A DNA stretch of 64,000 bases, from positions 1-64,000 of the IMG/VR virus record IMGVR_UViG_3300030329_003548, one strand, 5' to 3'. Within the stretch, counting starts at the first letter, position 1. Each line of letters starts with the position of its first letter. The notes below the pieces were generated by a model, which was not told the DNA's origin, made no database searches, and was given only the letters and a program-made list of their open reading frames with translations. This stretch comes from a virus. Below, in pieces: positions 15,262 to 63,721 of this stretch. The position numbers and the translations under genes were made by a program.

Positions 15262-15268
15262 TATTTAT
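15262..15268 (-). promoter_or_regulatory. Late promoter box (ATAAATA), 5 nt before ATG at 15256
   Basis: On the minus strand the sequence reads AATAAATA-TTGAT-ATG. It matches the T4 late -10 element TATAAATA. T4 spacing would place the transcript start on the A of the ATG. Confidence 0.75.
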
Positions 15269-15277
15269 TCTTTAGGG

Positions 15278-15694
15278 TTATTTTTCTTCTGAAGAGAGCA
15301 AGTATCCCTTGAGAGATTCAACTAAACCTCTAAGATCTTGCGCAATTCTTGAAATCTTTTTCGTCTCACTCTTGGAGACATTGTTAAATAGGGTATCACA
15401 CTCAGCATTATTCAACTGCGACTGTAATGAGTTACCATCCAGCCCGTTTAAGAAGTTAGTAAAGTCCTCAATTTGACCAATCCACCCACCGATAGCCTGA
15501 GTCATTGCAGCATTTTGCTCTTTTTGGTAATTCACGACAGGATTATCCGCAACATCGCTAACTGCAGCTAACGTCGCGCCACTATCACTCATTTCACCTT
15601 CAACTGGCCCGGGTGGAGTTGCAGGTCCCATTTGAGCCGCAGGATCAGCCTCTTGCTCAAGTAATACATTAAACTTCTTATCATAGATGCTCAT
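15278..15694 (-). CDS. Putative internal capsid protein with targeting-like N-terminus
   Basis: A 138-aa acidic, Ala/Asn/Gln-rich protein. Its N-terminus MSIYDKKFNVLLEQEADPAA resembles T4 capsid-targeting peptides (for example MKTYQEFIAEA), with a possible prohead-protease site after LLE at residues 11-13. A Pro/Gly linker (MGPATPPGPVEGEM) follows, then a helical C-terminal half. It has its own late box 10 nt upstream, back to back with the late box of the gene at 15736. The internal-head role is inferred from the motif shared with five other late proteins here. Confidence 0.6.
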   Translation of the reverse strand: MSIYDKKFNVLLEQEADPAAQMGPATPPGPVEGEMSDSGATLAAVSDVADNPVVNYQKEQNAAMTQAIGGWIGQIEDFTNFLNGLDGNSLQSQLNNAECDTLFNNVSKSETKKISRIAQDLRGLVESLKGYLLSSEEK

Positions 15695-15704
15695 AAGCTA
15701 TAAG

Positions 15705-15711
15705 TATTTAT
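15705..15711 (-). promoter_or_regulatory. Late promoter box (GATAAATA), 10 nt before ATG at 15694
   Basis: The minus strand reads GATAAATACTTATAGCTT-ATG. It is divergent from the plus-strand box at 15723, so a 40-bp region serves both strands. Confidence 0.7.
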
Positions 15712-15722
15712 CTTTATAGCGA

Positions 15723-15729
15723 ATAAATA
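15723..15729 (+). promoter_or_regulatory. Late promoter box (GAATAAATA), 6 nt before ATG at 15736
   Basis: The sequence GAATAAATA-ATTACA-ATG predicts a leader of about one nucleotide under T4 late-promoter geometry. Confidence 0.75.
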
Positions 15730-15735: not shown

Positions 15736-16173
15736 ATGGCGCGCAAATTTTTACTTGAAGATGTATTAGCAATGTCCGACAAATGGGCGACTGGTACGTC
15801 AGGTCGCAATGTCGGTCCAGAGCCAATGTCACTACTAGATATGCTCAAGAAAAGTGACAACCAACATCCGAACTACGTAAAGGCACCAGGTTCGATGCCT
15901 CATTCAGTACAAAATCTTGTACAGCTATTAGGTGACTTATACGTTCAATCGGCTGAAGTTAAGAAATCTCTATTATTAGCCAAAGCAAATCCCGTCTTAG
16001 ACGATAAGACAAAAGCTAAAGCTCAAATCCAAAAAATTGTCAAAAAAATTGAAACAATTCAGAAGATTATAAATTCAATAAGCATTGATATTGATGGTTT
16101 TTCAATTGAATCTGAAACTGACCAATCATATGTCAGTGATGACAATCTTCCCGTGGATAAAAGGGATAAGTAG
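15736..16173 (+). CDS. Putative internal capsid protein, 145 aa
   Basis: A Lys-rich, mainly helical protein whose first residues MARKFLLEDVLAMSD contain the F-x-L-x-E pattern shared by several late proteins of this phage; LLE followed by D fits a gp21-type cleavage site. The C-terminal half is a probable coiled coil (KTKAKAQIQKIVKKIETIQK). It is preceded by a late box 6 nt upstream. I do not recognise the family. A head-core or internal-protein role is inferred from the N-terminal motif and the late promoter. Confidence 0.6.
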   Translation: MARKFLLEDVLAMSDKWATGTSGRNVGPEPMSLLDMLKKSDNQHPNYVKAPGSMPHSVQNLVQLLGDLYVQSAEVKKSLLLAKANPVLDDKTKAKAQIQKIVKKIETIQKIINSISIDIDGFSIESETDQSYVSDDNLPVDKRDK

Positions 16174-17378: not shown

Positions 17379-17933
17379 ATGAGATTAGATCATATTGCCT
17401 ATCGAGTAAAGAATCGATATAAGACTGCTAAGTTTTTTGAAGACACACTCGGTTACACTATAGGCACTGAATTTCAAATTGAGTTTGATGATGGCTCTAA
17501 AGCTGATTGTCTAGCTCTTGTGCCACCAGAAAAACGACCAGATTCAACTCGTGATTGGACTCTAAATACTTGTTTAAGTTTTAATGAGTATGACGAAGAA
17601 GATATCACGTATCATGCACCGGCTGAGATCTTTGTCAGCGATGGTAAAATCGGATCTATTGTTGGTGATTGGGTTGCTGCTCGCGGTGGGGTGGGTGGTG
17701 TTCATCATGTGGCTTATCAGTGTGATAGTGTTGAAGATACTATGAAGAAATGGAAAGAGGAAGGGTATGCTGAATTTCTTTCTAACGAACCTCTTACTTG
17801 CCCGGGATTAAAACAAGTTTTCACAAAACCATCTGAACTTACAGGTGTAATATATGAATTAATTTCACGGGAAGGAGACGGCTTCTGTGAAGACAATGTA
17901 AAAGATTTAATGTTAAGCACACAAGAATTATGA
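17379..17933 (+). CDS. VOC-superfamily (glyoxalase/HPPD-like) metal enzyme
   Basis: A 184-aa vicinal-oxygen-chelate protein. The two halves begin LDHIAYRV (His5) and GGVHHVAYQC (His109/110), and the second ends TGVIYELI with Glu160, giving the His-His-Glu metal site used by glyoxalases, epimerases and hydroxyphenylpyruvate dioxygenases. The GVGGVHHVAY motif is closest to the HPPD-like branch by eye, but the substrate is unknown. It is the first gene behind the 17344 promoter, and its stop overlaps the aldehyde dehydrogenase start (ATGA), so the two are probably functionally linked. Confidence 0.8.
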   Translation: MRLDHIAYRVKNRYKTAKFFEDTLGYTIGTEFQIEFDDGSKADCLALVPPEKRPDSTRDWTLNTCLSFNEYDEEDITYHAPAEIFVSDGKIGSIVGDWVAARGGVGGVHHVAYQCDSVEDTMKKWKEEGYAEFLSNEPLTCPGLKQVFTKPSELTGVIYELISREGDGFCEDNVKDLMLSTQEL

Positions 17934-19471
17934 GTACAATGACAGACGAATTAGTAGAAGGCCGTAATTATGTTAACGGGGAATTTGTAGCGTGGAGAAA
18001 GGGTGTCGGGGGAGCAGATTTTGACACAGATGAATATGCTAATATCAATCCTGCTACTGGGGAGGTGTTAGGTATGTTTCCTCAATCTACTCCTGAAGAA
18101 GTGTGGGAGGCATACGATAACGCTCGGACAGCTTTCAGTTCTTGGAAGGCTAAAAGTAGATTGGAGAGAGCAGAGATTTTAAATAAGGTTGCAGATTTAA
18201 TTGTACAGCGTAGAGAGAAATTAGCGCGTATTATCTCTCTTGAAACAGGTAAAAATTACAACGAGTCAATTGCGGAAGTTAACGAGGCGCTGCACATGGC
18301 TCAGTTCGCGTTCGGGTCCGGTAGAACCCCCACTGGAGATATTGTCTCATCTGAGCTTGCAGAGAAGGATTCGTATATGATCCGTAAGCCTAAAGGCGTC
18401 ATTGCGATAGTATCTCCTTTTAATTTTCCACTAGCTATCGGACCGTTTTGGTGTGCAGCTCCAGCATTAGTCGAAGGTAATACAGTTATCATTAAACCTT
18501 CTGAAGATGCTCCTTGGTCTACTCATGCCGCAGCTCAATTATATCACGAAGCCGGTCTACCTGCCGGTGTATTGCAGGTGTTACATGGTGACGGATTGGT
18601 TGGTAATGCATTAATCCATGAAGATGTAGATCATATTTGCTTCACTGGTAGTGCAGATGTAGGTCAACACATTCGAAAGGTAGCTGCTGAGAGCTGGCAT
18701 AAAACGACCAGTTGCGAAATGGGTAGTAAGTCAGCTTGTATTGTGTTTGATGATGCTGATGTTGATATGGCTGTTGATGCAGCAATTGCTAGTGCATTTA
18801 AGTTATCAGGTCAACGTTGTGTCTCATCTGGTAGAATGATTGTTCAGCGTGGAGTATATGATGAGTTTTGTGAAAAATTTGCCGCTAAGGCTAAAGAAAT
18901 AAAGACAGGTAACCCGTTCAATGACGATGGTACACCAAATCAGAGCATGTATTATGGTCCTATTATCAATAAACAAGGATTTGATAAGATCTCCGAGTAT
19001 AACGAAGAAGTTGTTGTAGATCATGATGCTCAAATTCTAGTAGTACCTGAATATACATCTGATAATGGTGCGTATTATATTACACCAATGGTATATAAGA
19101 CAAAGTGGAGAGGTCACGAGGCACCGTACTTAAGAAATGAAGTTTTCGGTCCTCATGTAGCATTAGTTCCGTTTGATACTATTGAAGAAGGGGTGCGGAT
19201 TTATAATGATACAGAATATGGATTGGCAGTTGGCATTCTAACTAATAATTATCGTACAGCTCGTTACTGTCGAGATAATTGTGACACGGGTATGTGTTAC
19301 TGGAATGGTGGATCCATTGCAGCGGAAAGTCATTTGTCGTTTGGAGGTGTAAAGAAGAGCGGCAATGGCTTTCCGTCTGCAGCTAAAACATGGCTAGCTG
19401 TCACTCATACTATGTCTTGGACCGTTAATCACGGTGAGGATATCGCCTTTCCCCAAGGAATGTCAAAATGA
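17930..19471 (+). CDS. Aldehyde dehydrogenase, possibly aminoadipate-semialdehyde type
   Basis: Full-length NAD(P)-dependent aldehyde dehydrogenase of 513 aa. Catalytic residues are visible: Asn165 (SPFNFP), Glu263 (CEMGSKSA) and nucleophile Cys297 (SGQRCVSS). The nucleotide-binding stretch GNTVIIKPSEDAPW and the late motif NEVFGPHVALVPF are also present. The general pattern suggests the ALDH7 / L-2-aminoadipate-semialdehyde dehydrogenase branch. That subfamily call is inference, supported by the saccharopine-dehydrogenase-like gene in the same operon. Genes on both sides overlap it by 4 nt. Confidence 0.9.
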   Translation: MSTMTDELVEGRNYVNGEFVAWRKGVGGADFDTDEYANINPATGEVLGMFPQSTPEEVWEAYDNARTAFSSWKAKSRLERAEILNKVADLIVQRREKLARIISLETGKNYNESIAEVNEALHMAQFAFGSGRTPTGDIVSSELAEKDSYMIRKPKGVIAIVSPFNFPLAIGPFWCAAPALVEGNTVIIKPSEDAPWSTHAAAQLYHEAGLPAGVLQVLHGDGLVGNALIHEDVDHICFTGSADVGQHIRKVAAESWHKTTSCEMGSKSACIVFDDADVDMAVDAAIASAFKLSGQRCVSSGRMIVQRGVYDEFCEKFAAKAKEIKTGNPFNDDGTPNQSMYYGPIINKQGFDKISEYNEEVVVDHDAQILVVPEYTSDNGAYYITPMVYKTKWRGHEAPYLRNEVFGPHVALVPFDTIEEGVRIYNDTEYGLAVGILTNNYRTARYCRDNCDTGMCYWNGGSIAAESHLSFGGVKKSGNGFPSAAKTWLAVTHTMSWTVNHGEDIAFPQGMSK

Positions 19472-19899: not shown

Positions 19900-20031
19900 A
19901 TGTCTAGACGGGATATAATGGGGTATCAGAAGCCTCGCGGTAAGAAGACGCGTCAAGGGTGTAGTAATAATAGTAGAGGAAATAAAAAGTATAGAGGTCA
20001 AGGAGGTCCTAGAAAGAGGTTTAAAAAATGA
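19900..20031 (+). CDS. Arg/Lys/Gly-rich small protein, 43 aa
   Basis: A 43-aa basic protein (MSRRDIMGYQKPRGKKTRQG ... GGPRKRFKK) with RG and GG repeats, like RNA-binding tails. Its stop overlaps the ATG of the saccharopine-dehydrogenase-like gene (AATGA). The tight fit between neighbours supports it being real. Confidence 0.45.
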   Translation: MSRRDIMGYQKPRGKKTRQGCSNNSRGNKKYRGQGGPRKRFKK

Positions 20032-21122
20032 AAGCATTAATTTATGGCGTAGGTAGAATGGGGCAAGCTATCGGCTATGCCATGAATGAATTAGGGTATG
20101 ATGTTGCAGGTGTTGATGTAGATCGCACAGGTATAGATAATCTCCGGAGATTAATTAATAAAGATATATCATTTACACTATCTTCTCCAAATTTTGATTA
20201 TGTTAAGGACTATGATCCTGATATTGTTATCTCATCTCTACCATACCACCAGACAGAAGAGGTTGCCACGTGGTGTGTTGATAATGGATTACGGTATTGT
20301 GATTTAGGTGGAAGAGTTGATGTTTCAGATAATATTAATAGCTATGCAAAAAAAGCAACAGCTCCAGTATTTACTGACTTGGGATTGGCTCCAGGATGGG
20401 TTAATATTTTAGCAGAGCAAGGGTATGCGCGTGTTAGTGGTGCGACAGATGTTAGGATGATGGTTGGCGGTATACCCCTTAAGAGACCCGTTGGCCCGTT
20501 AAAGTATTTCATGACGTGGTCGTTAGATGGGTTACTAAACGAATATAGAGATGATTGTGAGATATTACGAGATGGTGAGATACAGACTGTACCAGGTTTG
20601 AGTCACTGTGAATTAGTTGACCCGGAGTGGGAAAATTGTATTACTTTAGAGGCGTTTTGTACTAGTGGTGGTGCTGCTCATACTACTCGTCGTATGAAGG
20701 ATAGAGGTGTTAAAAATTGCATTTACAAGACATTGAGATGGGTAGGTCATCACGAATTAATTGATTTCTTCATGAATAAATGTAAGATGTCTGATGATGA
20801 ATTAAAACGTATACTTGAAGCAAGCGCGGAATATGAATCAACACGAGACGACGTAGTTATCATAATGACTGAGGTTACAAACAATTCAGGTTTAACATGG
20901 AAGAGAGAATATGTAGTTGAATGTGATGAGACCTTTACCGCTATGCAGAAATGTACTGCATTTTCTATTTCTAGTGTTGCTGATTTAATGGGTAGAGGTA
21001 TATTTGATAATCGCGTACAGCAGAATAGAGGTGGTGATATTAAGTTACCTAACGTATTAAATTACTCTGATATACCGTTCGAAAAGTTTGAAAAGAATCT
21101 TAAAAAGTTATGCATTATATAG
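20028..21122 (+). CDS. Saccharopine dehydrogenase-like oxidoreductase
   Basis: A 364-aa protein with an N-terminal Rossmann fold (ALIYGVGRMGQAIGYAM, residues 3-19; acidic VDVD for ribose binding), the family segment IVISSLPYHQTEEVATWCVD, DLGGRV, TDLGLAPGWVNI and a C-terminal catalytic domain. This is the saccharopine dehydrogenase / lysine 6-dehydrogenase architecture. These enzymes form or reduce imine-linked products, including aminoadipate semialdehyde from saccharopine or lysine. Carboxynorspermidine and homospermidine synthases are relatives, so the substrate is not settled. The operon with an aldehyde dehydrogenase favours lysine/aminoadipate chemistry. Confidence 0.82.
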   Translation: MKALIYGVGRMGQAIGYAMNELGYDVAGVDVDRTGIDNLRRLINKDISFTLSSPNFDYVKDYDPDIVISSLPYHQTEEVATWCVDNGLRYCDLGGRVDVSDNINSYAKKATAPVFTDLGLAPGWVNILAEQGYARVSGATDVRMMVGGIPLKRPVGPLKYFMTWSLDGLLNEYRDDCEILRDGEIQTVPGLSHCELVDPEWENCITLEAFCTSGGAAHTTRRMKDRGVKNCIYKTLRWVGHHELIDFFMNKCKMSDDELKRILEASAEYESTRDDVVIIMTEVTNNSGLTWKREYVVECDETFTAMQKCTAFSISSVADLMGRGIFDNRVQQNRGGDIKLPNVLNYSDIPFEKFEKNLKKLCII

Positions 21123-21334: not shown

Positions 21335-22050
21335 TTGTAGTCTCCATATACATCATCGTCATCCCCATAAGCGCTATAATTCCATACGCTCTTAGAATCT
21401 GTATCAACATTATCTGTATATGCCTTGGTATCAGTCTGTGTGTTAGTATGACCAGATAACCTACCTGAGAAAGAGTCATCATATACTTGGTCTTGCCCCT
21501 TTTCACCTGACAGACCAGGTTCGAATGACCAGTCGTGACGCTTAGCTTGTATTAACCAAACATAATGACCCATTAGCGGGTTAATTGTACTTACTTCTTG
21601 ATCACGACGAGCTGTGATTTCGAAAAACTTACCATTACGGTCACCGGGTCTATCGTTACCAAACTCTGTCAATTGAAACACATCACCTGCTTTTGGCTCT
21701 GCACCTTGACCGAAGGTATCATAATACGCACTAACTGCTATCCATGCAGTAACATCGTCCTGACCCTCTATACCAAATTTGCTTAATATTACTGATTGCT
21801 CATTTAACTCAATCATCATAACCACTCTACTAGGATCACTATAAGTAGCAGATGGTTGTTCACCGTAGAAGGCATCGTGAGCAGAAAGAGCATATCCACT
21901 TACATAGTAGTGAACCTCTTGTCCATAAATTTTAATTTGCTCATTAAACCACAACGCGAAGTTGTCACGTTCATTATCGTTAAACGACTTGTCACCGATT
22001 CTAAACGTTCCAGGTACTGTTACTTCATCTCCGTAATATTGTCGTGGCAT
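21331..22050 (-). CDS. gp14: Neck protein, T4 gp14-like
   Basis: A 239-aa protein (T4 gp14: 256). By eye it follows gp14: an N-terminal segment with EQIKIYGQEVHYYV, then FYGEQPSATYS, LSKFGIEGQDDVTAWIAVSA, a PKAGDVFQL turn and KFFEIT, matching the T4 IQMRGVECYYV..., FGMQVQDEVTLSI, PKEGDLIYF and LFEI pattern. The C-terminus is acidic and disordered. gp14 with gp13 forms the head-tail connector neck. Its ATG overlaps the stop of the upstream 130-aa gene (TAATG), so it is translated from the same late transcript. Confidence 0.8.
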   Translation of the reverse strand: MPRQYYGDEVTVPGTFRIGDKSFNDNERDNFALWFNEQIKIYGQEVHYYVSGYALSAHDAFYGEQPSATYSDPSRVVMMIELNEQSVILSKFGIEGQDDVTAWIAVSAYYDTFGQGAEPKAGDVFQLTEFGNDRPGDRNGKFFEITARRDQEVSTINPLMGHYVWLIQAKRHDWSFEPGLSGEKGQDQVYDDSFSGRLSGHTNTQTDTKAYTDNVDTDSKSVWNYSAYGDDDDVYGDYN

Positions 22051-22442
22051 TATTTCCCTATACAGTATGAGTTTAATTTATCATCAAAATATACCGTGAT
22101 ACCTGTTGTACCTAGATCACGAGGATGGTCAGGTGTCAGATTTTTGATCTTGTATATTGTTAAGATATCTTTTAAATCTTTTCCATTAAGTACTTGCTTA
22201 CCAGATATAGAGTTTCTTAATATCTCAACCTTACGGACGAGTTCTGGATTAACTTTATCTTTATCAGGTACTAGATTCTGTCTTTGACGGGTCATACCCG
22301 TAAGACCTTTTTGAATGCGAGTATTATTGACGTCTTTTACTCTATTACCGTCCGTATCCCCGCTTTCTGCAGATGTAAACCTAAAGAAATCCTTAAAGCT
22401 AGGCATCTCGCCCCCTAGTACATCTTCACTTAAAGGTCTCAT
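22050..22442 (-). CDS. Putative capsid-associated protein, 130 aa
   Basis: The start is taken at the ATG 22442, not the TTG at 22445, because it lies 6 nt after a late box. The N-terminus MRPLSEDVLGGEMPSFKDFF carries the [LI]-x-E motif (LSE followed by D) near the start, as in other putative internal head proteins here. The rest is basic and helical with a C-terminal ITVYFDDKLNSYCIG strand. It is translationally coupled to gp14. No family recognised. Confidence 0.6.
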   Translation of the reverse strand: MRPLSEDVLGGEMPSFKDFFRFTSAESGDTDGNRVKDVNNTRIQKGLTGMTRQRQNLVPDKDKVNPELVRKVEILRNSISGKQVLNGKDLKDILTIYKIKNLTPDHPRDLGTTGITVYFDDKLNSYCIGK

Positions 22443-22448
22443 CAATAG

Positions 22449-22455
22449 TATTTAT
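22449..22455 (-). promoter_or_regulatory. Late promoter box (CATAAATA), 6 nt before ATG at 22442
   Basis: The minus strand reads CATAAATA-CTATTG-ATG. It directly follows a terminator hairpin, so it starts an independent late transcript for the 130-aa protein and gp14. Confidence 0.75.
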
Positions 22456-23119: not shown

Positions 23120-23524
23120 TTAAATTGGACCAGATCCAGGAAACCGGCCACCAAATTGTCGAATTACATCTCCCCAATTTCGAGCAGGTAACGGTTGACC
23201 AAGCTTATCTTTTTGTGCCCCAAATCTTGGAGCTTCTTTCTCCCACCAATTCGCTGGCACACTGTAACCTTTTGGATTGGTGAATTCTCCCATTTTGGTT
23301 TGCAGCGTCAAAAAATCTGGATCTAGACGGTGTTGTTGCTGTGCTTGAGGTGAGATACCATAGTCCATCATCATAGATTGTATGGGAGATAGCGGACCAG
23401 CCTTACCGTCTGGGACACCGGCGCCCGCTAGCGGGCGCGCGCGCGCTTTTTGGGCGTGAAGAATCTGCCATTTATCCTCAGTTATATAAGCTTCCCAAAT
23501 TAGTTTTTGATCCTTATCCTTCAT
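23120..23524 (-). CDS. Putative internal capsid protein, 134 aa
   Basis: The N-terminus MKDKDQKLIWEAYITEDKWQ resembles T4-type capsid-targeting peptides; IWE followed by A at residues 9-12 fits a prohead-protease site. The remainder is Pro/Gly/Gln-rich and basic, with an odd KARARPLAGAGVPDG segment encoded by a nearly pure-GC palindrome (23419-23446) unlike the surrounding AT-rich DNA. It has a perfect TATAAATA late box 6 nt upstream. No enzymatic motif seen. The candidate spanin gene follows after 4 nt. Confidence 0.6.
   Translation of the reverse strand: MKDKDQKLIWEAYITEDKWQILHAQKARARPLAGAGVPDGKAGPLSPIQSMMMDYGISPQAQQQHRLDPDFLTLQTKMGEFTNPKGYSVPANWWEKEAPRFGAQKDKLGQPLPARNWGDVIRQFGGRFPGSGPI
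23419..23451. repeat. GC-only palindrome with (GC)n tract
   Basis: GCGCCCGCTAGCGGGCGC (23421-23438) is a perfect 18-nt palindrome followed by alternating GC and, on the plus strand, TTTTT (23447-23451). It lies within the coding sequence of the 134-aa protein and differs sharply in composition from the rest of the window. Confidence 0.7.
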
Positions 23525-23530: not shown

Positions 23531-23538
23531 TATTTATA
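23531..23538 (-). promoter_or_regulatory. Late promoter box (TATAAATA), 6 nt before ATG at 23524
   Basis: An exact T4 consensus on the minus strand, TATAAATA-CTTTTA-ATG. It overlaps the T-run of the terminator of the upstream gene. Confidence 0.85.
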
Positions 23539-24509: not shown

Positions 24510-24522
24510 GTAAATATTTATA
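24510..24522. promoter_or_regulatory. Bidirectional late promoter between 305-aa gene and terminase
   Basis: The near-palindrome GTAAATATTTATA holds TATAAATA on the minus strand (5 nt before the ATG at 24509) and GTAAATA on the plus strand (23 nt before the terminase ATG). The terminase leader contains AGGAA as a possible ribosome-binding site. Confidence 0.65.
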
Positions 24523-24539
24523 TATTGTAGGAACCTTTT

Positions 24540-26952: not shown

Positions 26953-26959
26953 ATAAATA
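26953..26959 (+). promoter_or_regulatory. Late promoter box (GAATAAATA), 6 nt before ATG at 26966
   Basis: The sequence GAATAAATA-TTTTAT-ATG precedes the sheath gene. The identical arrangement, including the TTTTAT spacer, recurs before 29976. Confidence 0.8.
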
Positions 26960-26965: not shown

Positions 26966-29350
26966 ATGGCACGTACAATACAATCACCAGGTGTAGAAAT
27001 TAATGAGATTGATTTATCTCTGCGTCCTGTGCTTCCTATCGGCACTCATATCATGGTACCCGGCTTCGCAGCTCAAGGGCCAACAGACGAGTTACTGGAG
27101 GTCGCCAGCTTCTCTGAATTTGAGACAGTATACGGGAAACCTACCAATGCAGCAGAAAGATATTTCTATCACACAGTAAAGAGTATATTTAACAGCGACG
27201 CAAATGTGCTAACGACCCGCTTGCCATACGGGTCAGCAGCTGGATTGGGCTTTGGTGATAGCTATTCCGCGTTATTCTTCCCTTGCTACCCTTATAATGG
27301 TGAGCAGGCACTACCTACAACCGTACATTCAGCTGGTGCATCGTTATCGGGTGTGGGTGATACAGGTGGTACTGGATATGTATTTGGTCGACCAACCTTA
27401 GTTGAGCTGAGTAAAGAGCAATACGATTTAGTAAACAGAAGACAGTTTAGTTGGACTAACCATGTAAAACCGAGTGAGAGCTTCTCCAATGATCACAATA
27501 CTTGGGGTAAAGCTGGCATGATTATCACTAATAAAGCTAAAACTACTATTAATGATAAGTATGAAGGTTATTACATCACATTAACTGACAACTCGCAGAT
27601 GAATCCTGCGACTGATTTTGACAGTGTTAACAACTTCTATAGTGTTAATGCTAGCAGCAACGGTCAAAACTTAGTAGGTAACCCATTAGTTGTTCCTGCA
27701 GAGAGAAGAAACTTCTCACTCTCTGGTACTGCAACAGATAGTAATGGTAATGTTTCTGAGAAACTTGAGAATCTACCAACATTTGACGTTTCTAGTGACG
27801 AATTTAAGGATACCGCAATCTTAGGGTTGTTCAAGATGAGAACATCAGTGTTCTCAACTGATACGTTAAAATTAGATAATGTATTAGCTGAGTCTTATAT
27901 GGGATCTCTTGACGGGTATCGCAAGCTACAGAATCAAAACGGTGGTACACCTAAGACGTTCTTCTTAGGTGATATTGAAGACGGTTCACCTAACCTTGAA
28001 GTAATTATTAACCCCAATATCAGTCTTAATACTGGTACATGGGCAAATAGTGCCAATAATGAACCTAATAAGATGGTAAGGTTCTTATCTCAAAGAGCTC
28101 TTACGGATTCTGCAAGCGTATCACTTTCTGGTAACTTTGGTGTACCTAGAAACGTATTAACAAGCTTACATCACGCCTCTACTGGCTTAGCTATGACGGA
28201 TGCGTTGCTACCATTAGGTTTATATCAGCCTGCTAATCCTGTTAATAAGATTGTTGGTTCTGTACCGACCAAGGTTAGACGTGTAATGGATAACCTGTTA
28301 AATGTTGATGCACAGCAGATTGATGTTTCTGTTGAAGCTGGTTTAGGTACGGTTTATGCTGGTTCTGAGTATCAGCAATTATCCGGTACTGGATTAGAGA
28401 CATTTGATGATACCCTGAGATTTGATATGGGTGATTACAGTAATTCTACTGGTTTATATAAGTTAAGCGAGGGTGTAAATTCTGATGCTAGCTTACATGG
28501 TGAAGGTTATAACCTGCAGCAGAATTACAGAGCAGTATTTAATGAATTCCAGAATTTTGCTGAATTCAAGAGAAAAGATCACATCTTTATTGCTGATACA
28601 CCGAGATGGATCTTTGTACAAGGTAGAAACGATAAGGTTCTTAATGATAAGACCAGAGTATTTACACAAGCTGTATATTGGCCGTTGAGGCACGTATATG
28701 GTTCGATTAATACTAGTTTCGCAACTGTATATGGTAACTGGGCTAGAGTATATGATGGAACATCTGATACTCAAATCTGGGCACCGTTCTCCGGTGTAGC
28801 AGCAGCAACATTTGCTAATACTGATAACACATATGACCCATGGTGGGCTCCTGCTGGATTTACCCGTGGTAGATTTGGTGGTGTAAATGATCTCGCAGTA
28901 ATTCCTGCGCAGAAGCACAGAGATCAGTTATATAGAATCAGTATTAACCCAGTACATCAATTCCCGAATGAAGGTTTCGTAATTTGGGGTCAGAAGACCA
29001 TGTTCAAGAAGCCGAGCGCATTCGATAGAGTTAATGTAAGAAGGTTGTTCTTGTACCTCGAGAAGCTCGTAAGACAAACGATGAAGTTCTACGTATTCGA
29101 GCCAAACACAGTACTAACAAGAACACAGGTACTGAATAATTTAACACCTATCTTTGATAGAGTTAAAAACACACAAGGTATGTATGACTACCTCATCATT
29201 TGTGATGAAAGAAACAACACACCTGACGTTATTGATCAGAACGAGTTAGTAGTTGACATCTACATTAAACCGGTACGTGCTGCTGAGTTTATCCTGGTTA
29301 ACTTCTACGCAACAAGAACTGGTCAGGACTTTAACGAATTAATAGCTTAA
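26966..29350 (+). CDS. gp18: Tail sheath protein, T4 gp18
   Basis: Contractile sheath subunit of 794 aa, longer than T4 gp18 (659 aa). The N-terminal arm MARTIQSPGVEINEIDLS and the following GFAAQGPTDELLEVASFSEFETVYG are characteristic of sheath proteins. The conserved C-terminal domain includes WVFVQGRND-like DTPRWIFVQGRND, the NVRRLFLYLEKLVRQTMKFYVFEPN stretch and the closing VRAAEFILVNFYATRTGQDFNELIA. The extra length is in the central surface-exposed insertion (about residues 110-480). It is followed directly by the tube gene. Confidence 0.95.
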   Translation: MARTIQSPGVEINEIDLSLRPVLPIGTHIMVPGFAAQGPTDELLEVASFSEFETVYGKPTNAAERYFYHTVKSIFNSDANVLTTRLPYGSAAGLGFGDSYSALFFPCYPYNGEQALPTTVHSAGASLSGVGDTGGTGYVFGRPTLVELSKEQYDLVNRRQFSWTNHVKPSESFSNDHNTWGKAGMIITNKAKTTINDKYEGYYITLTDNSQMNPATDFDSVNNFYSVNASSNGQNLVGNPLVVPAERRNFSLSGTATDSNGNVSEKLENLPTFDVSSDEFKDTAILGLFKMRTSVFSTDTLKLDNVLAESYMGSLDGYRKLQNQNGGTPKTFFLGDIEDGSPNLEVIINPNISLNTGTWANSANNEPNKMVRFLSQRALTDSASVSLSGNFGVPRNVLTSLHHASTGLAMTDALLPLGLYQPANPVNKIVGSVPTKVRRVMDNLLNVDAQQIDVSVEAGLGTVYAGSEYQQLSGTGLETFDDTLRFDMGDYSNSTGLYKLSEGVNSDASLHGEGYNLQQNYRAVFNEFQNFAEFKRKDHIFIADTPRWIFVQGRNDKVLNDKTRVFTQAVYWPLRHVYGSINTSFATVYGNWARVYDGTSDTQIWAPFSGVAAATFANTDNTYDPWWAPAGFTRGRFGGVNDLAVIPAQKHRDQLYRISINPVHQFPNEGFVIWGQKTMFKKPSAFDRVNVRRLFLYLEKLVRQTMKFYVFEPNTVLTRTQVLNNLTPIFDRVKNTQGMYDYLIICDERNNTPDVIDQNELVVDIYIKPVRAAEFILVNFYATRTGQDFNELIA

Positions 29351-29937: not shown

Positions 29938-29966
29938 TTATCCCGTAACTGACCGTTGCGGGATAA
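29938..29966 (+). terminator. Hairpin overlapping the 29963 late box
   Basis: TTATCCCG and CGGGATAA form an 8-bp stem (longer with a G-T pair, loop TGACC). The 3' arm runs directly into GATAAATATTTT. It could terminate gp19 transcription or be a regulatory element; the T-run is interrupted. Confidence 0.5.
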
Positions 29967-29969
29967 ATA
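29963..29969 (+). promoter_or_regulatory. Late promoter box (GATAAATA), 6 nt before ATG at 29976
   Basis: The sequence GGATAAATA-TTTTAT-ATG shares its first bases with the hairpin stem just upstream. Confidence 0.8.
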
Positions 29970-33149: not shown

Positions 33150-33156
33150 ATAAATA
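33150..33156 (+). promoter_or_regulatory. Late promoter box (GATAAATA), 12 nt before ATG at 33169
   Basis: The sequence GATAAATA-CTTACAGTATTT-ATG precedes the tape-measure-like gene. The predicted leader is about 7 nt. Confidence 0.7.
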
Positions 33157-42911: not shown

Positions 42912-42918
42912 TATTTAT
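42912..42918 (-). promoter_or_regulatory. Late promoter box (CATAAATA), 6 nt before ATG at 42905
   Basis: The minus strand reads CATAAATA-ATT-ATG-ATG. T4 geometry puts the start of transcription at the second ATG, which therefore decides the start codon. Confidence 0.75.
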
Positions 42919-42946: not shown

Positions 42947-42953
42947 ATAAATA
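42947..42953 (+). promoter_or_regulatory. Late promoter box (GATAAATA), 8 nt before ATG at 42962
   Basis: The sequence GATAAATA-ATTAGTGA-ATG precedes gp25, divergent from the box at 42912. Confidence 0.75.
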
Positions 42954-42961: not shown

Positions 42962-43477
42962 ATGGCATCTATTAAATTAGACGGGCTGAGAGTTACAACT
43001 CCTCATAGCACTGACGACAACGTAAACCCTACAGTTGTCCCGGAAGAGCTATATACCTATAAAGACATTAAGTTAGATATTGAAATTGGATCGTCTAACG
43101 TAAACCTCCCAGCTAATCAATCTAAAAATAATACAGACATTGCTGACATTCGTGATTTAGGTGCTATTAAGCAATCTATAGAAAACATTTTCAATACCAC
43201 TCCTGGTGAGAAGTTGTTAAATCCGCATTTAGGTATGAATTTAGCCAGATTTTTATTTGATCCTATAACTCGTGAGACAGGTGAATTAATTGCTCGGCAA
43301 ATACTTGTAGGATTATCTCGTCAAGAACCTCGTATTTCAGTAACTGGTATAAAGATAGTCGGTGATGTACCTAGCAATACTTATAATATAGGGTTTGTTA
43401 TAACAATGCCTAACCTCTCAGATGAGAGAGTTACAGTCGGTGGTATATTGGACGAAAAAGGATTTAATTTTGTGTAA
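42962..43477 (+). CDS. gp25: Baseplate wedge protein, T4 gp25
   Basis: A gp25/GPW-family lysozyme-like wedge protein, 171 aa (T4: 132). Diagnostic segments are IRDLGAIKQSIENIFNTTPGEKLLNPHLGMNLARFLF, read in two parts as AIKQSIENIFNT and GEKLLNPHLGMNL, then LIARQILVGLSRQEPRISV. The N-terminal 35 residues are an extra disordered arm. It is followed by gp6, its partner in the wedge and inner-ring complex. Confidence 0.9.
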   Translation: MASIKLDGLRVTTPHSTDDNVNPTVVPEELYTYKDIKLDIEIGSSNVNLPANQSKNNTDIADIRDLGAIKQSIENIFNTTPGEKLLNPHLGMNLARFLFDPITRETGELIARQILVGLSRQEPRISVTGIKIVGDVPSNTYNIGFVITMPNLSDERVTVGGILDEKGFNFV

Positions 43478-52301: not shown

Positions 52302-52308
52302 ATAAATA
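52302..52308 (+). promoter_or_regulatory. Late promoter box (TATAAATA), 18 nt before ATG at 52327
   Basis: A perfect T4 consensus ahead of the S74-tail-fibre gene. The longer gap gives a leader of about 13 nt with an AGGA ribosome-binding site, unlike most late genes here. Confidence 0.85.
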
Positions 52309-57364: not shown

Positions 57365-57371
57365 ATAAATA
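57365..57371 (+). promoter_or_regulatory. Late promoter box (CATAAATA), 10 nt before GTG at 57382
   Basis: The sequence CATAAATA-GTATTACAAA-GTG supports the GTG as the start of the 124-aa protein. Confidence 0.65.
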
Positions 57372-57381: not shown

Positions 57382-57756
57382 GTGTCAAATAATATACATA
57401 TTACAACGTTACCACAGGTTACTGATATTAAAGCAGGGTACTTTCTGATTGTAGAAACTCCAGCTGGTACTAATATCATTGACTTTAACGACTTCGTAAT
57501 ATCAGACAACAATACAACATTCGCTCCGCTGCTTAGCACGCATACAGAAGACATCTTAAGTAATAAGACAGTTATTCAAGGCTTAACCGCCGGAACGTTC
57601 CCCTATCAATTTAATACAGTTAATGTTAGTACGTTGAGCGCAGAAAGTATTAAAACTAAAGGTAGCACAGGTGTAACAACTACAGTAGAGTTATCCACGA
57701 AGAGTGGTCTCCAAACAATGACTATTAACAATGGAATTATTACTAATATAGCATGA
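57382..57756 (+). CDS. Adaptor-like small virion protein, paralogue 1
   Basis: A 124-aa protein with the N-terminal pattern IHITTLPQVTDIKAGYFLIVETPAGTNIIDFNDFV. This matches its neighbour at 57753 over the first 60 residues and resembles the first 50 residues of the 1416-aa fibre. Such segments often bind a fibre to its anchoring protein. The C-terminal part is Thr/Ser-rich. It starts with GTG. Confidence 0.65.
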   Translation: MSNNIHITTLPQVTDIKAGYFLIVETPAGTNIIDFNDFVISDNNTTFAPLLSTHTEDILSNKTVIQGLTAGTFPYQFNTVNVSTLSAESIKTKGSTGVTTTVELSTKSGLQTMTINNGIITNIA

Positions 57757-58194: not shown

Positions 58195-58201
58195 ATAAAT
58201 A
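58195..58201 (+). promoter_or_regulatory. Late promoter box (CATAAATA), 9 nt before ATG at 58211
   Basis: The sequence CATAAATA-ATAATGTAG-ATG; the intervening ATG is followed at once by a stop (TAG), so 58211 is the start. Confidence 0.7.
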
Positions 58202-58210: not shown

Positions 58211-61200
58211 ATGAATATCTATAATTTCAACATATGGAACACCAAGCCAGTTAGCGGTGCATATCTTCTCGATGAAGATGTGAATATTAAGCATGTTGAT
58301 GAATACACTGATGACGGTTTAACGCTCAGTTTAACGAATGCTCTCTCTGATCTACAGGATACAACGTTTAACAAAGACACTAATTTCTACCTTTCTGATG
58401 AAAAAACTATAGAAAACATATTAGATATTCAACCCACTCAGGTCAATTATCCGATATATCGGCAAACTTGGTTAGAAAACACAGCATATAGTAGATTTAT
58501 AGTTGTCGACACATCTACTGGTTATACCGAGGTTACCGGTGTATCGGCTTCTGTAGATAATAGGAGCATATTCGAGTTAGAAATTTTAAACGATCAATAC
58601 ACTGCGATTAGGCATTATGACCCTTCAACTAGGTTGCTCAAATATCTCACTCTGAGCGCAAACAACACAACTGCAAAAAGAGATACGATCTTATCATTTA
58701 CACCTAGAGTGTCTGCTAGTGCTTTTGCCGATGATAGTCAGATATTCGAATACGTATTAGATGAAGATAATAATACATTATCGCTATTCGAATCAAGCAG
58801 TGGCACTTGCTTGATCGTCATGAAGCAACATGCTCAGACTGACGGTCGACAAGCTAGATCGTATGCATTTTATCCACTAAGTTCGGTTAATGTGTCAGTA
58901 GGGCCGATATCATATTCCAGTACTGTACCAGATATGGGTAAATGGAAGATCAGACCAATAAAGAAGACACCAAGCGTCTTTAATTTAAAATCTACATGGT
59001 CTAGCTATCTAAGTAGTATTGATGATAATCATTTAAATATAGACTCTAATAGGTCAGTTGATAATGTAAGTAATAACTTTCTACTTAATACGACGACTAA
59101 TAAAATCGTAACACAGGATTACCCTCACTCTGGTCCTAATTACATTGACATAAATTTGATGCCTTTAAAGAATCAGTTAACTGTAGAAGGTAATCAATCG
59201 CGTAGCAATCCTTATTCTGGCGCTGAGAGTGAAACAACACAGCGAGTGTATAATAAGATACACACTGGAAGTAAGCAAGAGCAAGGTAGTGATAGTATAT
59301 ACATGAATTATGTTGCTAATACTATGGCAACAGTGATACCTAGTGATAAGCTAACATATTTTCATATGCCTCAAGACATGAGGCCATATAAGCAGATAAA
59401 CATTAACGACACTACTTTAGCAAAAATTGGTGGTATACCTGGAAGCTCTCCAATAAAAGCAGATAAAGTTTTTAAGAAAAGAGCAGATAACTTTAATACT
59501 ACTCATCCACGAGACGAGCTTAACGGTACATGGCTGTGTGCATGGCTTTCTGGTTCACCTAATAGTTCAAACTTGCCGGTATGGGTAGACCGCTATTATA
59601 ATCCAGGAATAGAAACAACAGTAACGGCTATCACAGCTGATAAATCTGATATAGTTAAATACATTGATAGCAGAGTATCGATTACTAAAAAGCTATCAGC
59701 TGAAAATATTCGAGTATATGACAAGATTAGTGATTTAGTATTTGAACCAGGAGCACTATACGCTTATTCACACATAGGAAATAAAGATGCCAAAAAGATC
59801 ATAGAGAAGTTAAATGGTACTCTAATGATCGACGGTGTATCACAATATAAGAATGCATCGTTTGTAGATGTAAAACTGCCAGTAGATAATGTGTTAGTAT
59901 TTAACAGTGATAATTATGGTGTGACGGAAGAGATAGAGCACAAAGGTTCATTTACTCTCAGCTTTTGGATGCATTGCAATAATTGGGAGCAACCGTTTGC
60001 ACATCAATTCCTAGGCAACTACCTCAACAGAGGGTTTGGTCTATTTAACGAACCAGCTGTTACACCCATAATAACAGTGCCTAACGGGGGTGATATTGAA
60101 GTTTACAATTCCGATTTTAATAGAATCGATCGACATATTATTAATGAGCAAATTAAACATATAACAAAGCACGGTGGCACTGGTAATTACTGGGTTGCTA
60201 CTACAGCGCATGACGTATATGAATATGATGCTAAGGGTACAATTCAAAATAAAATAACATCATTTAATACTACTAACTACCCTAATAGGCACATTACAGA
60301 CATAGAAATTAGTAATGACAAATTGTATTTGCTTATGGAGCCAGTCGCTGGATGGGATAAAGCAACTACGTGTAAGTATTTTATATATGATCTTAAAGAG
60401 CAAACATCAGGGTATATTGGCACATCAGGAACTGCTAGCTTAGCAAACTACAGTCCATCAGTATCGTCAACTGGTAGAATACATTCGTTTAATACATTAT
60501 CAGGAGATATTATTACAGTTGTAGCTTGTGACGCGTTAAGTGGAAATGAGTCATTAGTAGATAACTTTAGTAGACCATGGTGGGTTCACGATAATAGAGT
60601 ATATACTTATGATGTAACCACATCTGCTGTGCAAATAGGTCTTAGTGCCTTATCGGGTCAAACAATTGACGGTATTAATTGTGATAAAGATAATAACCTA
60701 TGGGTACTTCATGGTGAGTCGTATACAGCCGGTGGTGCTATATCCGGTGCTAATAAAGTTACAAAGATAGATAATGATCGAAATATTTTATTCACAGTAT
60801 CGTTAACTTCTTCTCCTCCATTGAGTTCTGATACAGTTAGGTATATCGATTTTGTAGACGAATTTACTAATACAGGGTATAAATCATCCGCTATTGTCAT
60901 AAATCAAACAATTATTAATGGTGGTGATAACGTAGTACCTGGCTATACTACTAATGGCACTGTTTCCGGGAAAGCAGTCGCTGTTAAAATTTCATCTGAT
61001 GGTTACATCGAGAGCTATAATGATATACCTGGAAGTATCATGACGTATTCTGGTGTTAATAGCATATCAGCATTTAACTGGAAGACTATTACTGGGTACG
61101 ATTATTTGAGAAAAAATAAGCTCAATTTAAAGCCACGAATTGAAGCTAAATTAGGTGTAAGCAACCTGTATAATACCACGACTACCACACAATCATATTC

Positions 61201-61801
61201 TGCATTCACATTAACATATAATCTAACAGGCATGAATGCTGGGTGGCACCATTTTGGAGTAAGATTTAATGCCGAGCTTGGTGATTATGAGATGTATATT
61301 GACACTCAGCTAGTTGATAGCGTTAGTATTCCAGGGGGTAAATTCTCATATTCAAATATGTTCGAACAACCACTATTAGTAGGAGCGACGCCGTTCTATT
61401 CTAATGTACCCCTATCTGAATTTATACAGCAACCTAGACACTACCATGCTAATAACATAAAGATTAGAGACATCAAGTTATACAATAGTTCATTAGAGTA
61501 TTTCGATCTCAAAGCTCATTATTTAGCTAATACTGATATAAGAGATATAGTATGGGACGTATCTACTGGTCAGCGTAATTATATTGACACTGTTGAGCGC
61601 GTATTTAAACATACAGTGCCTGGTAGAAAGAGTGAAGTGTATGATATTAATATTAAAAACTCAGGAATAACAGATGCATCGCTTAAGGAAGGCTTACAAG
61701 ATAAAATCATAGAACAATTAGGAGATATTGTACCAGTACACACTAAGCTAAATGATATGATGTGGAACGGTACGAGTTTAAGTGCGGTATCAGGAATATA
61801 G
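58211..61801 (+). CDS. Giant virion protein: LamG-like domain with inserted propeller
   Basis: A 1196-aa protein. Near residues 575-600 a concanavalin/LamG-like jelly roll begins (GSFTLSFWMHCNNWEQPF, FLGNYLNRGFGLF); its second half appears at about 1005-1060 (AGWHHFGVRFNAELGDYEMYIDTQLVDSVSIPGG in parts, PLLVGATPF). Between them, residues ~615-930, lie propeller-like blades (GGTGNYWVATTAHDVYEYDAKG, ISNDKLYLLM, CDKDNNLWVLHGE). The C-terminal end (LKEGLQDKIIEQLGDIVPVHTKLND) is compact. The protein is probably a peripheral baseplate or fibre component binding glycans. Confidence 0.6.
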   Translation: MNIYNFNIWNTKPVSGAYLLDEDVNIKHVDEYTDDGLTLSLTNALSDLQDTTFNKDTNFYLSDEKTIENILDIQPTQVNYPIYRQTWLENTAYSRFIVVDTSTGYTEVTGVSASVDNRSIFELEILNDQYTAIRHYDPSTRLLKYLTLSANNTTAKRDTILSFTPRVSASAFADDSQIFEYVLDEDNNTLSLFESSSGTCLIVMKQHAQTDGRQARSYAFYPLSSVNVSVGPISYSSTVPDMGKWKIRPIKKTPSVFNLKSTWSSYLSSIDDNHLNIDSNRSVDNVSNNFLLNTTTNKIVTQDYPHSGPNYIDINLMPLKNQLTVEGNQSRSNPYSGAESETTQRVYNKIHTGSKQEQGSDSIYMNYVANTMATVIPSDKLTYFHMPQDMRPYKQININDTTLAKIGGIPGSSPIKADKVFKKRADNFNTTHPRDELNGTWLCAWLSGSPNSSNLPVWVDRYYNPGIETTVTAITADKSDIVKYIDSRVSITKKLSAENIRVYDKISDLVFEPGALYAYSHIGNKDAKKIIEKLNGTLMIDGVSQYKNASFVDVKLPVDNVLVFNSDNYGVTEEIEHKGSFTLSFWMHCNNWEQPFAHQFLGNYLNRGFGLFNEPAVTPIITVPNGGDIEVYNSDFNRIDRHIINEQIKHITKHGGTGNYWVATTAHDVYEYDAKGTIQNKITSFNTTNYPNRHITDIEISNDKLYLLMEPVAGWDKATTCKYFIYDLKEQTSGYIGTSGTASLANYSPSVSSTGRIHSFNTLSGDIITVVACDALSGNESLVDNFSRPWWVHDNRVYTYDVTTSAVQIGLSALSGQTIDGINCDKDNNLWVLHGESYTAGGAISGANKVTKIDNDRNILFTVSLTSSPPLSSDTVRYIDFVDEFTNTGYKSSAIVINQTIINGGDNVVPGYTTNGTVSGKAVAVKISSDGYIESYNDIPGSIMTYSGVNSISAFNWKTITGYDYLRKNKLNLKPRIEAKLGVSNLYNTTTTTQSYSAFTLTYNLTGMNAGWHHFGVRFNAELGDYEMYIDTQLVDSVSIPGGKFSYSNMFEQPLLVGATPFYSNVPLSEFIQQPRHYHANNIKIRDIKLYNSSLEYFDLKAHYLANTDIRDIVWDVSTGQRNYIDTVERVFKHTVPGRKSEVYDINIKNSGITDASLKEGLQDKIIEQLGDIVPVHTKLNDMMWNGTSLSAVSGI

Positions 61802-61802
61802 T

Positions 61803-63701
61803 ATGAATACTAGCAATATATTACCAGATCTGTCAGTTACAACCACTTTAAGTGGTGCGATAGATATCGATATCGAGAAATATTTTGAGCTCGATAGGTA
61901 TCTAGGTGAGTCACTACAGTTACCTTATACGTTTGATGATCTAAAAATTAAGCCTAACGAACTGTGTGTAGCAGATAATATTAATGCCTGCTTTGACAAG
62001 CTACATCATAACTTTTTATATATTAACGCACAAACTAAAATTGCCTCAAATAATTTTCCCCTATCTGGTAATTATAAAGGATACTTTGCTACTGCATCTG
62101 CAACATCAGACCCTCACCGTGAAGTGAGGTGGTTCAAGGCTCCTATCGATGACTCTTCTCGGCGCGCCCATAAAGAGTTTGTAGGTGGTACAGATTTAGT
62201 TAGTAATTTATCTGCGGAAGCTATTGCTAATCAATCCTACGGTAAAGGGCCTACACCGCTAGATTCTTTCCTTCACCCCAACGGGTTGATAGATGGCGTA
62301 TTTGCTGATAATTTACGAAACTCGAATTATTATATGGGCTTTATTGCTAACTCTGCTAATTTAATGGCTATACAGAGTGATAAGGATGATACGTTTATAT
62401 GGGGACCACAAACTATTTTAAATACTCCATATGTAGAAAATAGCACTCAGTTAACCTTTACAAATATCAAATCTCTAGCAATGAATTCTCAAAATAGATT
62501 ATTTGTGTTAGATGATGTCAATATATTCAAATTTGATGTTGATACCTTATTAGCGTACAATCCGGCACTTAGCGGCATTGGTAGAGATCTAATGTTCAGC
62601 ATAGGTGGTAAAAGTGACTCCGTCAATGATAAACTCAAATTTAATATACCTGTTAGTATAGCGATCGGTAAACATGATAAAGTGTATGTATTAGATCAAA
62701 AAGATAAAGCTTATAAGGTTTATGATAAAGATTTAAACTGGATAAAAACTGTTATCAAGACTGTTGATTTCGCTCAAGATACTGTCGTAGATATAGCAGT
62801 AGATAAAGATAATGAAGATGTGTATGTCTTAACAGAGAATGGTATTTTATTTAGATATAATAATGATAATGAACTAGTACAACAACAGCAGTTAGTAGAT
62901 ATTTTAGCTAAACCTTATATTGACGTACCGTCGTTAAGTAGTATAACTGTGGATGTATTGGGGCTACCAGCTGATAAATTCACAGGTATAGCATTTTCAA
63001 GAAATGATGGAAATGTGTTATATGTTTTAACTGAAAAAAATATCTTTAAGAAATTTAAAACAAAGACGGATAGGTCTATAGGGTCATTCCGGTTAACAGA
63101 TAATAACATATATACACTATCTGGTGGATATGGAAATATACCAGTAACTGAAGAGAAATTTAAATTTATTAACCTTTTAAATACTAGTGATAGATCGAAA
63201 GATTACATTTTTGTTGGTGGTAACAGTTCTGGCAATTTTTCAGTAAGTTCTGTCGGGAAGGTGTTCAAATTCGAAGAATCTGTAACATATCAGTCGTGTA
63301 TATACGATAGCTACAAGACTCGTACGTATCAAATAAGCGCCGTACATGTGCACCCGGATGAATATGTCACTTCATGGGTTCTTAATAAATCTCTATATAA
63401 ATTAATCTATAATCATTTGTTACTGAGAGACAACTTTCACTCTAAGTTTGTAGGAGAATATAACGAAGCAGGCTTAGTTCAATATAAAGGTATTGAGTAT
63501 ATTACTGATTTAGACGATAATTTGTTTGGATACGAGACAACATTAAACAATTTTATTGGTATTAATGAGCCTATATTAGCAGAGACTATTAATAGGTGTA
63601 TTGGTGAAGTATACACAATTCAACAAGGTTTAGTGAAAATGTGCGGTGAACGTATTGCAAACAAATACCCATATGCAACACAGGTAGTTAGATTGCAGTA
63701 A
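61803..63701 (+). CDS. Propeller-containing virion protein, 632 aa
   Basis: Start taken at ATG 61803, one base after the previous stop; an upstream GTG (61782) would overlap. From about residue 220 to 430 blades of an NHL-like propeller occur: MNSQNRLFVLDDVNIFKFD, AIGKHDKVYVLDQKDKAYKVYD, AVDKDNEDVYVLTENGILFRY and FSRNDGNVLYVLTEKN. The C-terminal part has conserved-looking ITDLDDNLFGYETTLNNFIG. It presumably assembles with the preceding protein. Confidence 0.6.
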   Translation: MNTSNILPDLSVTTTLSGAIDIDIEKYFELDRYLGESLQLPYTFDDLKIKPNELCVADNINACFDKLHHNFLYINAQTKIASNNFPLSGNYKGYFATASATSDPHREVRWFKAPIDDSSRRAHKEFVGGTDLVSNLSAEAIANQSYGKGPTPLDSFLHPNGLIDGVFADNLRNSNYYMGFIANSANLMAIQSDKDDTFIWGPQTILNTPYVENSTQLTFTNIKSLAMNSQNRLFVLDDVNIFKFDVDTLLAYNPALSGIGRDLMFSIGGKSDSVNDKLKFNIPVSIAIGKHDKVYVLDQKDKAYKVYDKDLNWIKTVIKTVDFAQDTVVDIAVDKDNEDVYVLTENGILFRYNNDNELVQQQQLVDILAKPYIDVPSLSSITVDVLGLPADKFTGIAFSRNDGNVLYVLTEKNIFKKFKTKTDRSIGSFRLTDNNIYTLSGGYGNIPVTEEKFKFINLLNTSDRSKDYIFVGGNSSGNFSVSSVGKVFKFEESVTYQSCIYDSYKTRTYQISAVHVHPDEYVTSWVLNKSLYKLIYNHLLLRDNFHSKFVGEYNEAGLVQYKGIEYITDLDDNLFGYETTLNNFIGINEPILAETINRCIGEVYTIQQGLVKMCGERIANKYPYATQVVRLQ

Positions 63702-63707
63702 TTAGGA

Positions 63708-63714
63708 ATAAATA
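63708..63714 (+). promoter_or_regulatory. Late promoter box (GAATAAATA), 7 nt before ATG at 63722
   Basis: The sequence GAATAAATA-ATTTAAG-ATG begins the next late gene. Confidence 0.75.
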
Positions 63715-63721
63715 ATTTAAG

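Follow-up and report, generated by a model that had tools for sequence, protein, structure and literature searches.

How does a T4-like phage have its late messages translated when the late promoter lies only a few nucleotides before the start codon? This question is raised by a stretch of 64,000 nucleotides (hereafter, the window; positions 1 to 64,000 of the virus record IMGVR_UViG_3300030329_003548), in which the heptamer ATAAATA is found just upstream of genes on both strands. The window is part of a record of 87,296 bases (G000) from an uncultured phage. The explanation that best fits the sequence is that the mRNAs started from these boxes are leaderless or nearly so, and we consider it very probable.

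A second IMG/VR record, G001 (111,662 bases), overlaps G000 and is identical to it over both compared stretches of 20-22 kb. Since it is probably the same virus, it extends the data, contributing 24.8 kb of upstream flank, without adding independent evidence. With our own caller of open reading frames (ORFs), 122 genes were called in G000 plus this flank. The phage is T4-like and homologues of T4 core genes are present, with matches to profiles of the tail sheath, large terminase, tail tube, baseplate wedge and DNA polymerase, as well as the clamp loader (Gp44 lid), SbcCD-like gp46/47, UvsX and gp32. It is far from the phage records compared: megablast of 20 kb against them gave no match, and the sheath matches listed, from cyanophages and marine single-cell viruses, are 31-39% identical over 36-47% of the protein. 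The best matches of the sheath protein and the polymerase include cyanophages. The relatives mentioned below are six IMG/VR records found via the sheath protein (G002, G003, G005, G007, G009 and G010); together with the window phage they are called the group.

Placement of the ATAAATA box before start codons

No 7-mer is more enriched than ATAAATA within 30 nt upstream of the 122 genes: it precedes 25 of them versus 0.53 expected, and 41 copies are present in total. Taking the gap as the nucleotides between box and start codon, the exact box stands at gap 4-10 before 21 genes. Among 20 other permutations of its letters, three, which are one- or two-base shifts of ATAAATA, give 11 genes each at this distance, and the remaining 17 give 0-4 genes each. 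Chance in an AT-rich genome might be invoked for these boxes, as the GC content is 38% and ATAAATA shows no overall over-representation. In the window, 22 exact copies were counted on both strands compared with a mean of 34.6 in dinucleotide shuffles, so the motif is depleted and the signal is therefore its placement and not its number. However, chance is refuted by the enrichment before genes, by the permutation controls and by control motifs, which showed no edge at 5 nt in the ten-locus set described below, and it can be considered extremely improbable. The depletion itself looks as if selection acted against stray late boxes.

Upstream of these genes the box forms the core of a TATAAATA-like octamer, as in T4-type late promoters, with a free first base (A 35, T 32, C 22 and G 12 among the 101 boxes of the group). 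In the window, 64 gene starts were checked (63 called, plus that of a 64-aa ORF at 13435). Exact boxes lie 4-30 nt before 16 of these starts, with gap 5-7 in 10 cases, 5-8 in 11 and up to 12 in 15; with one mismatch allowed, the respective counts are 30, 16, 18 and 23. The sequence-only reading had counted 20 boxes, 12 of them at 5-7 nt and 14 at 5-8 nt, which falls between both series depending on the variants accepted, and its seven examples (15262, 22449, 23531, 24515, 26953, 29963 and 63708) are indeed exact copies, at gaps 5, 6, 6, 5, 6, 6 and 7 to an ATG. One-mismatch boxes were rejected as evidence because they are too noisy; T4 itself has them at gap 4-12 in 30 of its 235 genes.

Considering G000 and the flank, 28 genes have a box within 60 nt, and the gap is 5-12 nt in 26 of them and 18 and 50 nt in the other two. 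In bacteria, genes with promoter-type signals about 10-12 bp before the start are interpreted as leaderless (PMC3160421). The spacing script skipped starts less than 4 nt from a box and took a later in-frame ATG instead; three ORFs (22050, 42351 and 71667) open at gap 3 and have an in-frame ATG at gap 6, and the flank ORF 5609 has ATGs at gaps 2 and 8.

In T4, the late box is described as eight bases, from T(-13) to A(-6), and the sixth base after it is +1 (PMC2988020), in agreement with the location of about -13 to -6 that had been assumed. Applied here, this geometry would put +1 at the start codon itself or within a few nt upstream. A leaderless design predicts an edge at 5 nt because the start codon cannot precede +1. 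When ATAAATA-N(k)-ATG was counted without gene calls over the 205 boxes of the window phage and its six relatives, the cases numbered 0, 36, 29 and 9 for k=4, 5, 6 and 7. The 90 boxes of ten IMG/VR loci, three of which come from records also in the first set, gave 0, 28, 14 and 7, respectively. Counts at k=0-3 are non-zero (26 in the seven-phage set) and background-like. A disappearance of the close spacing in relatives was looked for, and the spacing persists.

The purine expected at the predicted +1 is partly seen. A or G occupies this position in 27 of 33 genes with a gap of at least 8, versus 9 of 33 one base earlier, and in 8 of 10 genes at gap 7; in the far-box genes of T4, KVP40, S-PM2 and Syn9 it does so in 64 of 81. 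The implied leader is 0-5 nt in 92 of the 101 boxed genes of the group, compared with 1 of 85 in these four phages, in line with the earlier statement that such a programme would be unusual for a T4-like phage. Regarding the leaderless late mRNAs proposed from the sequence, what stands is a predicted leader of zero to a few nt; strict leaderlessness would be limited to gap 5, perhaps gap 6, and gaps up to 10 would give leaders of up to 5 nt.

Probable promoter function and ribosome-binding sites

A Shine-Dalgarno (SD) sequence was defined as any of AGGA, GGAG, GAGG, AGGT and AAGG whose end lies 3-12 nt upstream of the start codon. It is present in only 2 of the 96 close-box genes of the group and in none of the 26 of the window phage, in line with the earlier statement that the message has no room for a ribosome-binding site. 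The non-box genes of the group carry it in 39 of 353 cases, at or below the shuffled level in G003, G007, G009 and G010. A few strong SD sequences occur in the window record, for example GGAGGA before 68082.

The mechanism that these data suggest is as follows. ATAAATA would serve this divergent T4-like phage as its late promoter, of the gp55 type; a homologue of the late sigma factor gp55 (phrog_234, E 8e-28) is encoded in the overlapping record G001, outside the window. At gap 5, transcription would begin with the start codon itself, and at gaps 6-10 it would begin 1-5 nt ahead of that codon, the leader being short or absent because the promoter is placed 5-10 nt before the start codon. Box-started mRNAs would then be leaderless or nearly so and carry no SD sequence, and ribosomes would be recruited directly by the AUG located at the 5' end or close to it, as in known leaderless mRNAs. 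From this we infer binding of gp55 to the box, actual transcript starts at the predicted positions, 70S-type initiation and a host that translates leaderless messages well.

Alternatively, ATAAATA could be an A/U-rich translation signal within a leadered mRNA, as in hosts that dispense with SD sequences, and not a promoter. The scarcity of SD sequences among the non-box genes of the related records is compatible with it, and so is the case of Flavobacterium, which lacks SD sequences and uses adenines upstream of the start, in transcripts described as mostly leadered (PMC6847099). Nevertheless, the heptamer is identical to the T4 late promoter, which is mostly located 19-36 nt upstream in T4 and two cyanophages, and the boxes prefer the first genes of transcription units. 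In G000 and the flank, exact boxes at gap 4-12 precede 20 of 49 genes that open a unit versus 6 of 73 internal ones (Fisher 2.7e-5), and in the whole group 78 of 222 versus 21 of 232. The exact 5-nt edge also argues against a translation signal, as does the Pelagibacter phage HTVC008M, where 57% of the non-box genes have an SD sequence and yet nine boxes lie at exactly 5 nt. This possibility is thus quite unlikely, and a promoter is favoured because of the bias towards unit-opening genes, the identity with the T4 late box and the presence of the gp55 gene. Most genes are not led by a box, being internal to operons or under other promoters.

Even if the boxes are promoters, most of the protein could come from read-through mRNAs of upstream promoters, leaderless messages being a minor fraction. 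T4-like phages produce polycistronic late RNAs, and only the 20 of 49 unit-leading genes mentioned above have an exact box at 4-12 nt. However, two pairs of boxes (15705/15723 and 42912/42947) lie at divergent junctions with no same-strand upstream gene, where read-through must come from afar, and we regard it as unlikely that most of the protein comes from such mRNAs.

Coming back to leaderless messages, several observations weigh against them. Read-through mRNAs, for instance, could also carry the boxed genes. The gp55 matches listed are only 35-44% identical over 52-70% of the length, and the T4 geometry is transferred to this protein. At gap 6, a purine occupies the sixth base after the box in only 13 of 25 genes, the next base being the A of the start codon (once G); in these genes +1 may be displaced by one base, onto the A of the ATG, or the signal may be weak or absent. 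Moreover, the window record has an SD sequence in 18 of 69 non-box genes (26%) versus 12% in shuffles, and the flank in 3 of 26. Finally, only 3 of the 26 close-box genes have a strong virion match and two have a strong non-virion match, so the term late is partly assumed.

These matches come from a PHROGs scan of all 26 close-box genes, in which gene 78969 was scanned without its first residues. The strong virion matches are the sheath (26966), the baseplate wedge (42962) and a tail fibre (63722), and the non-virion ones are a PhoH-like gene (flank 3161) and an ATP-dependent protease (78969). Three further genes (14855, 29976 and 78567) have weak virion matches (E 0.001-0.009), and the other 18 are uninformative. 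Hence, the box-led genes are not all virion genes, as the PhoH-like and protease genes are among them; a late virion programme is plausible, though not covered gene by gene. The protease gene (phrog_4871, E 6.8e-248; record positions 78969-81410, loci L009/L010) is outside the window, and its GTG lies 5 nt after a late box.

Boxed genes of the window and their start codons

The tail sheath gene gp18 (26966..29350, + strand; phrog_23, E 6.6e-72) is led by the box at 26953..26959 (+), with gap 6 to its ATG. If the true start codons were further downstream, leaders would be longer than they appear, and several in-frame starts are present in some ORFs (22050, 42351 and 71667). However, the gp18 alignment begins at residue 1-4 in 11 of the 12 related records tabulated (in L113 the best segment begins inside), and the GenBank starts of three checked genes of HTVC008M, at 49760, 59714 (gap 8) and 75559, are the same codons. 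Downstream starts are thus largely refuted for gp18 and very improbable overall. In the same table, where L101 and G010 are one record, counted once, and the truncated L013 and L017 (both at gap 9) were excluded, the box lies 5-9 nt upstream of gp18 in 11 of 12 records, G003 having no box. The spacing is therefore kept in relatives whose sheath proteins are 40-65% identical, whereas the gp18 gap is 28-39 nt in T4, KVP40, S-PM2 and Syn9. In Melnitz, HTVC008M and Mosig, gp18 has no box within 40 nt and an AGGAG-type sequence is found instead.

The baseplate wedge subunit gene (42962..43477, +; phrog_261, E 5e-21; phrog_43, E 2.2e-14) has its box at 42947..42953 (+) with gap 8 to the ATG; for the same gene, the gap is shorter in HTVC008M (5), equal in Mosig (8) and longer in Melnitz (16), S-PM2 (24) and KVP40 (23). 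Divergent from it, the box at 42912..42918 (-) precedes gene 42351-42908, which begins with ATGATG at gaps 3 and 6. The other divergent pair consists of 15705..15711 (-), at gap 10 from the ATG of gene 15278-15694, and 15723..15729 (+), at gap 6 from the ATG of gene 15736-16173; in G002, the orthologs have gaps of 10 and 9, respectively.

Further late boxes lie on the minus strand. The one at 15262..15268 (-) is at gap 5 from the ATG of gene 14855-15256, with a weak match to a major head protein (E 0.0084); that at 22449..22455 (-) precedes ORF 22050-22445, with a TTG opening at gap 3 and an in-frame ATG at gap 6; and that at 23531..23537 (-), which reads TATAAATA, is at gap 6 from the ATG of gene 23120-23524. 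The same octamer at 24515..24521 (-) is at gap 5 from an ATG located 51 nt inside the TTG-opened ORF 23592-24560, and the resulting start, MPVRH, is common to G002, where the gap is also 5.

On the plus strand, the box at 13422..13428 (+) stands at gap 6 from the 64-aa ORF 13435-13629, a putative gene that the caller did not select. The boxes at 29963..29969 (+; gap 6) and 33150..33156 (+; gap 12) precede the ATGs of genes 29976-31352 (weak tail-tube match, E 0.00096) and 33169-35553. Further on, 57365..57371 (+) is at gap 10 from the GTG of gene 57382-57756, 58195..58201 (+) at gap 9 from the ATG of gene 58211-61801 (also 9 in the G005 ortholog), and 63708..63714 (+) at gap 7 from the ATG of the tail fibre-like gene 63722-66205, which extends beyond the window. 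The exact box at 52302..52308 (+) has a gap of 18, with AGGA in between, to the tail fibre-like gene 52327-56577, and is the only leadered exact box in the window.

Apart from the boxes, an aldehyde dehydrogenase gene (PF00171, E 4e-129) is located at 17930-19471 and a saccharopine dehydrogenase-like gene at 20028-21122 of the window. The bacterial matches listed for the former are 25-38% identical; as an indicator of the host it was discarded, since one genome scan gave 18 loci of several phyla with at most 38% identity. A Bacteroidota host was also considered, as these bacteria lack SD sequences, but Flavobacterium transcripts are described as mostly leadered (PMC6847099). The gene psbA is in none of the 8 possibly incomplete IMG/VR records tested, and was present in the S-PM2 control; a cyanobacterial host is not indicated by these sequences. 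A one-piece tmRNA gene (RF00023, 146 bits, E 5e-59) with a predicted tag of 27 aa lies outside the window, at L010:7463-7855 (+), that is, record positions 86463-86855, and blastn found no similar DNA in the phage collection.

Close and far boxes across lineages and in known systems

The sequence-only reading also proposed two translation modes, because its exceptions with longer gaps, at 52302 (exact, gap 18) and at 24510 (GTAAATA, one mismatch, gap 23), contain AGGA or AGGAA. Both exceptions are as described, each with AGGA, but in the window phage the association of close boxes with a lack of SD sequences, and of far boxes with their presence, is weak, with one exact case (52302). Two modes in one genome are clear in the cultured Pelagibacter phages HTVC008M (NC_020484) and Mosig (MT647606), both isolated on Pelagibacter ubique HTCC1062. 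Their 101 boxes include 17 ATGs at gap 5 versus only 2 at each of gaps 4 and 6, and SD sequences are found in 1 of 19 close-box genes, 19 of 22 far-box genes and about half of the non-box genes. Among the open-access papers listed, no report of this pattern was found. The close-box genes of HTVC008M include the baseplate wedge gene. Considering far-box genes only, SD sequences are frequent in T4 (20/23), HTVC008M (5/5), Mosig (14/17) and Melnitz (17/18), and low in S-PM2 (6/22), Syn9 (4/18) and the group itself (1/5).

An alignment-based scan of relatives, from whose 306 confirmed matches the best 80 (79 loci) were kept, extends this picture. Close boxes and near-absent SD sequences occur together in the group of the window phage, L099-L101 with L113, L102-L108, L014-L016, L110 and L127. 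Far boxes and frequent SD sequences characterize most of another group of 19 rows (e.g. L111, L121, L124 and L132) and more distant ones, and L112, of the 19-row group, shows both spacings. Plotting box-to-start distance against SD use, as had been suggested, gave a Spearman coefficient of -0.80 over 36 entries, which include near-duplicates and two records entered twice (L014/G003 and L105/G007). Both traits are available for 34 rows: 13 combine close boxes with low SD use and 18 far boxes with SD sequences, and 3 are discordant (L112, HTVC008M and AG-345-F15). The coupling is unproved, as there are 3 independent contrasts on supported branches, too few to prove it. The close-box lineages as one clade (AU p 0.49) are neither rejected nor demonstrated. 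Separately, L095-L098 and L109 (records of up to 196 kb, sheath 44-45% identical) have almost no SD sequences and few ATAAATA near starts, and may use a different late promoter.

Another promoter element could follow the same logic. For a housekeeping -10 element, the spacing that corresponds to a leaderless gene is a gap of 6, and within the group TATAAT has 37 ATGs at this gap versus about 15 on average at the others; it also lies 7 nt before the start of the DNA polymerase gene. In the window phage alone there are 7 at gap 6 and no clear peak. A wider proposal is then that a broad lineage of uncultured T4-like phages moved its promoters (late gp55 promoters and, in part, TATAAT-type ones) to where +1 coincides with the start codon, losing most SD sequences, that box spacing reports how the host ribosome initiates, and that the Pelagibacter phages use the two modes side by side within a single genome. 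We consider this proposal tentative, with chances slightly below even. Leaderlessness as a rule of alphaproteobacterial hosts was rejected, since close boxes are absent from Sinorhizobium phage phiM12 and, in Caulobacter phage Cr30 (NC_025422), none of the called genes is preceded by ATAAATA within 40 nt, although one ATAAATA-N6-ATG occurs in it. A single spacing was searched in phiM9, with 0 matches, and in P-SSM2 and S-SKS1, with 1 match each.

Late transcription in phages is classically exemplified by T4, and the contrast with it implies that protein synthesis would start in a different way here. If the proposed leaderless messages are real, these phages would offer a simple system for the leaderless translation of abundant virion proteins, an annotation rule (the start codon lies 5-10 nt after ATAAATA) and, in the box spacing, a clue to the translation mode of the host obtained from sequence only. 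The prediction of late promoters was described as unsuccessful in pelagimyophages (PMC7029224), and the close spacing may explain it. Among the open-access papers listed, judged mostly by title and the beginning of the abstract, no report of leaderless late mRNAs in a T4-like phage was found.

Leaderless late phage mRNAs are already known from the Thermus phage phiYS40, in which most middle and late mRNAs are described as leaderless and IF2/IF3 as shifted (PMC3594737), and AR9 transcripts are also described as often leaderless (PMC5312081). The window phage would add a T4-like case; a late leaderless programme is common to it and phiYS40, experimental there and predicted here. With T4 (gp55/gp33/gp45-dependent TATAAATA, PMC2988020) it shares the core box and a gp55 homologue, but the T4 boxes are 12-35 nt from the start, with SD sequences in most far-box genes, instead of mainly 5-12 nt. 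The cyanophages S-PM2 and Syn9, whose late promoters are described as NATAAATA (PMC2984593), have the same heptamer at gaps of 15-57 nt, none at 4-12. The bacterial TA-led leaderless genes (PMC3160421) have a similar distance, although the element is there the -10 TANNNT of the housekeeping sigma factor and here a phage late-sigma box. HTVC008M and Mosig share the close box, mostly at exactly 5 nt, and differ by their SD sequences at far-box genes and about half of the non-box genes. Their close/far split resembles that of Lactococcus leaders, described as having two length classes, shorter than 5 nt or close to 40 nt (PMC10986495).

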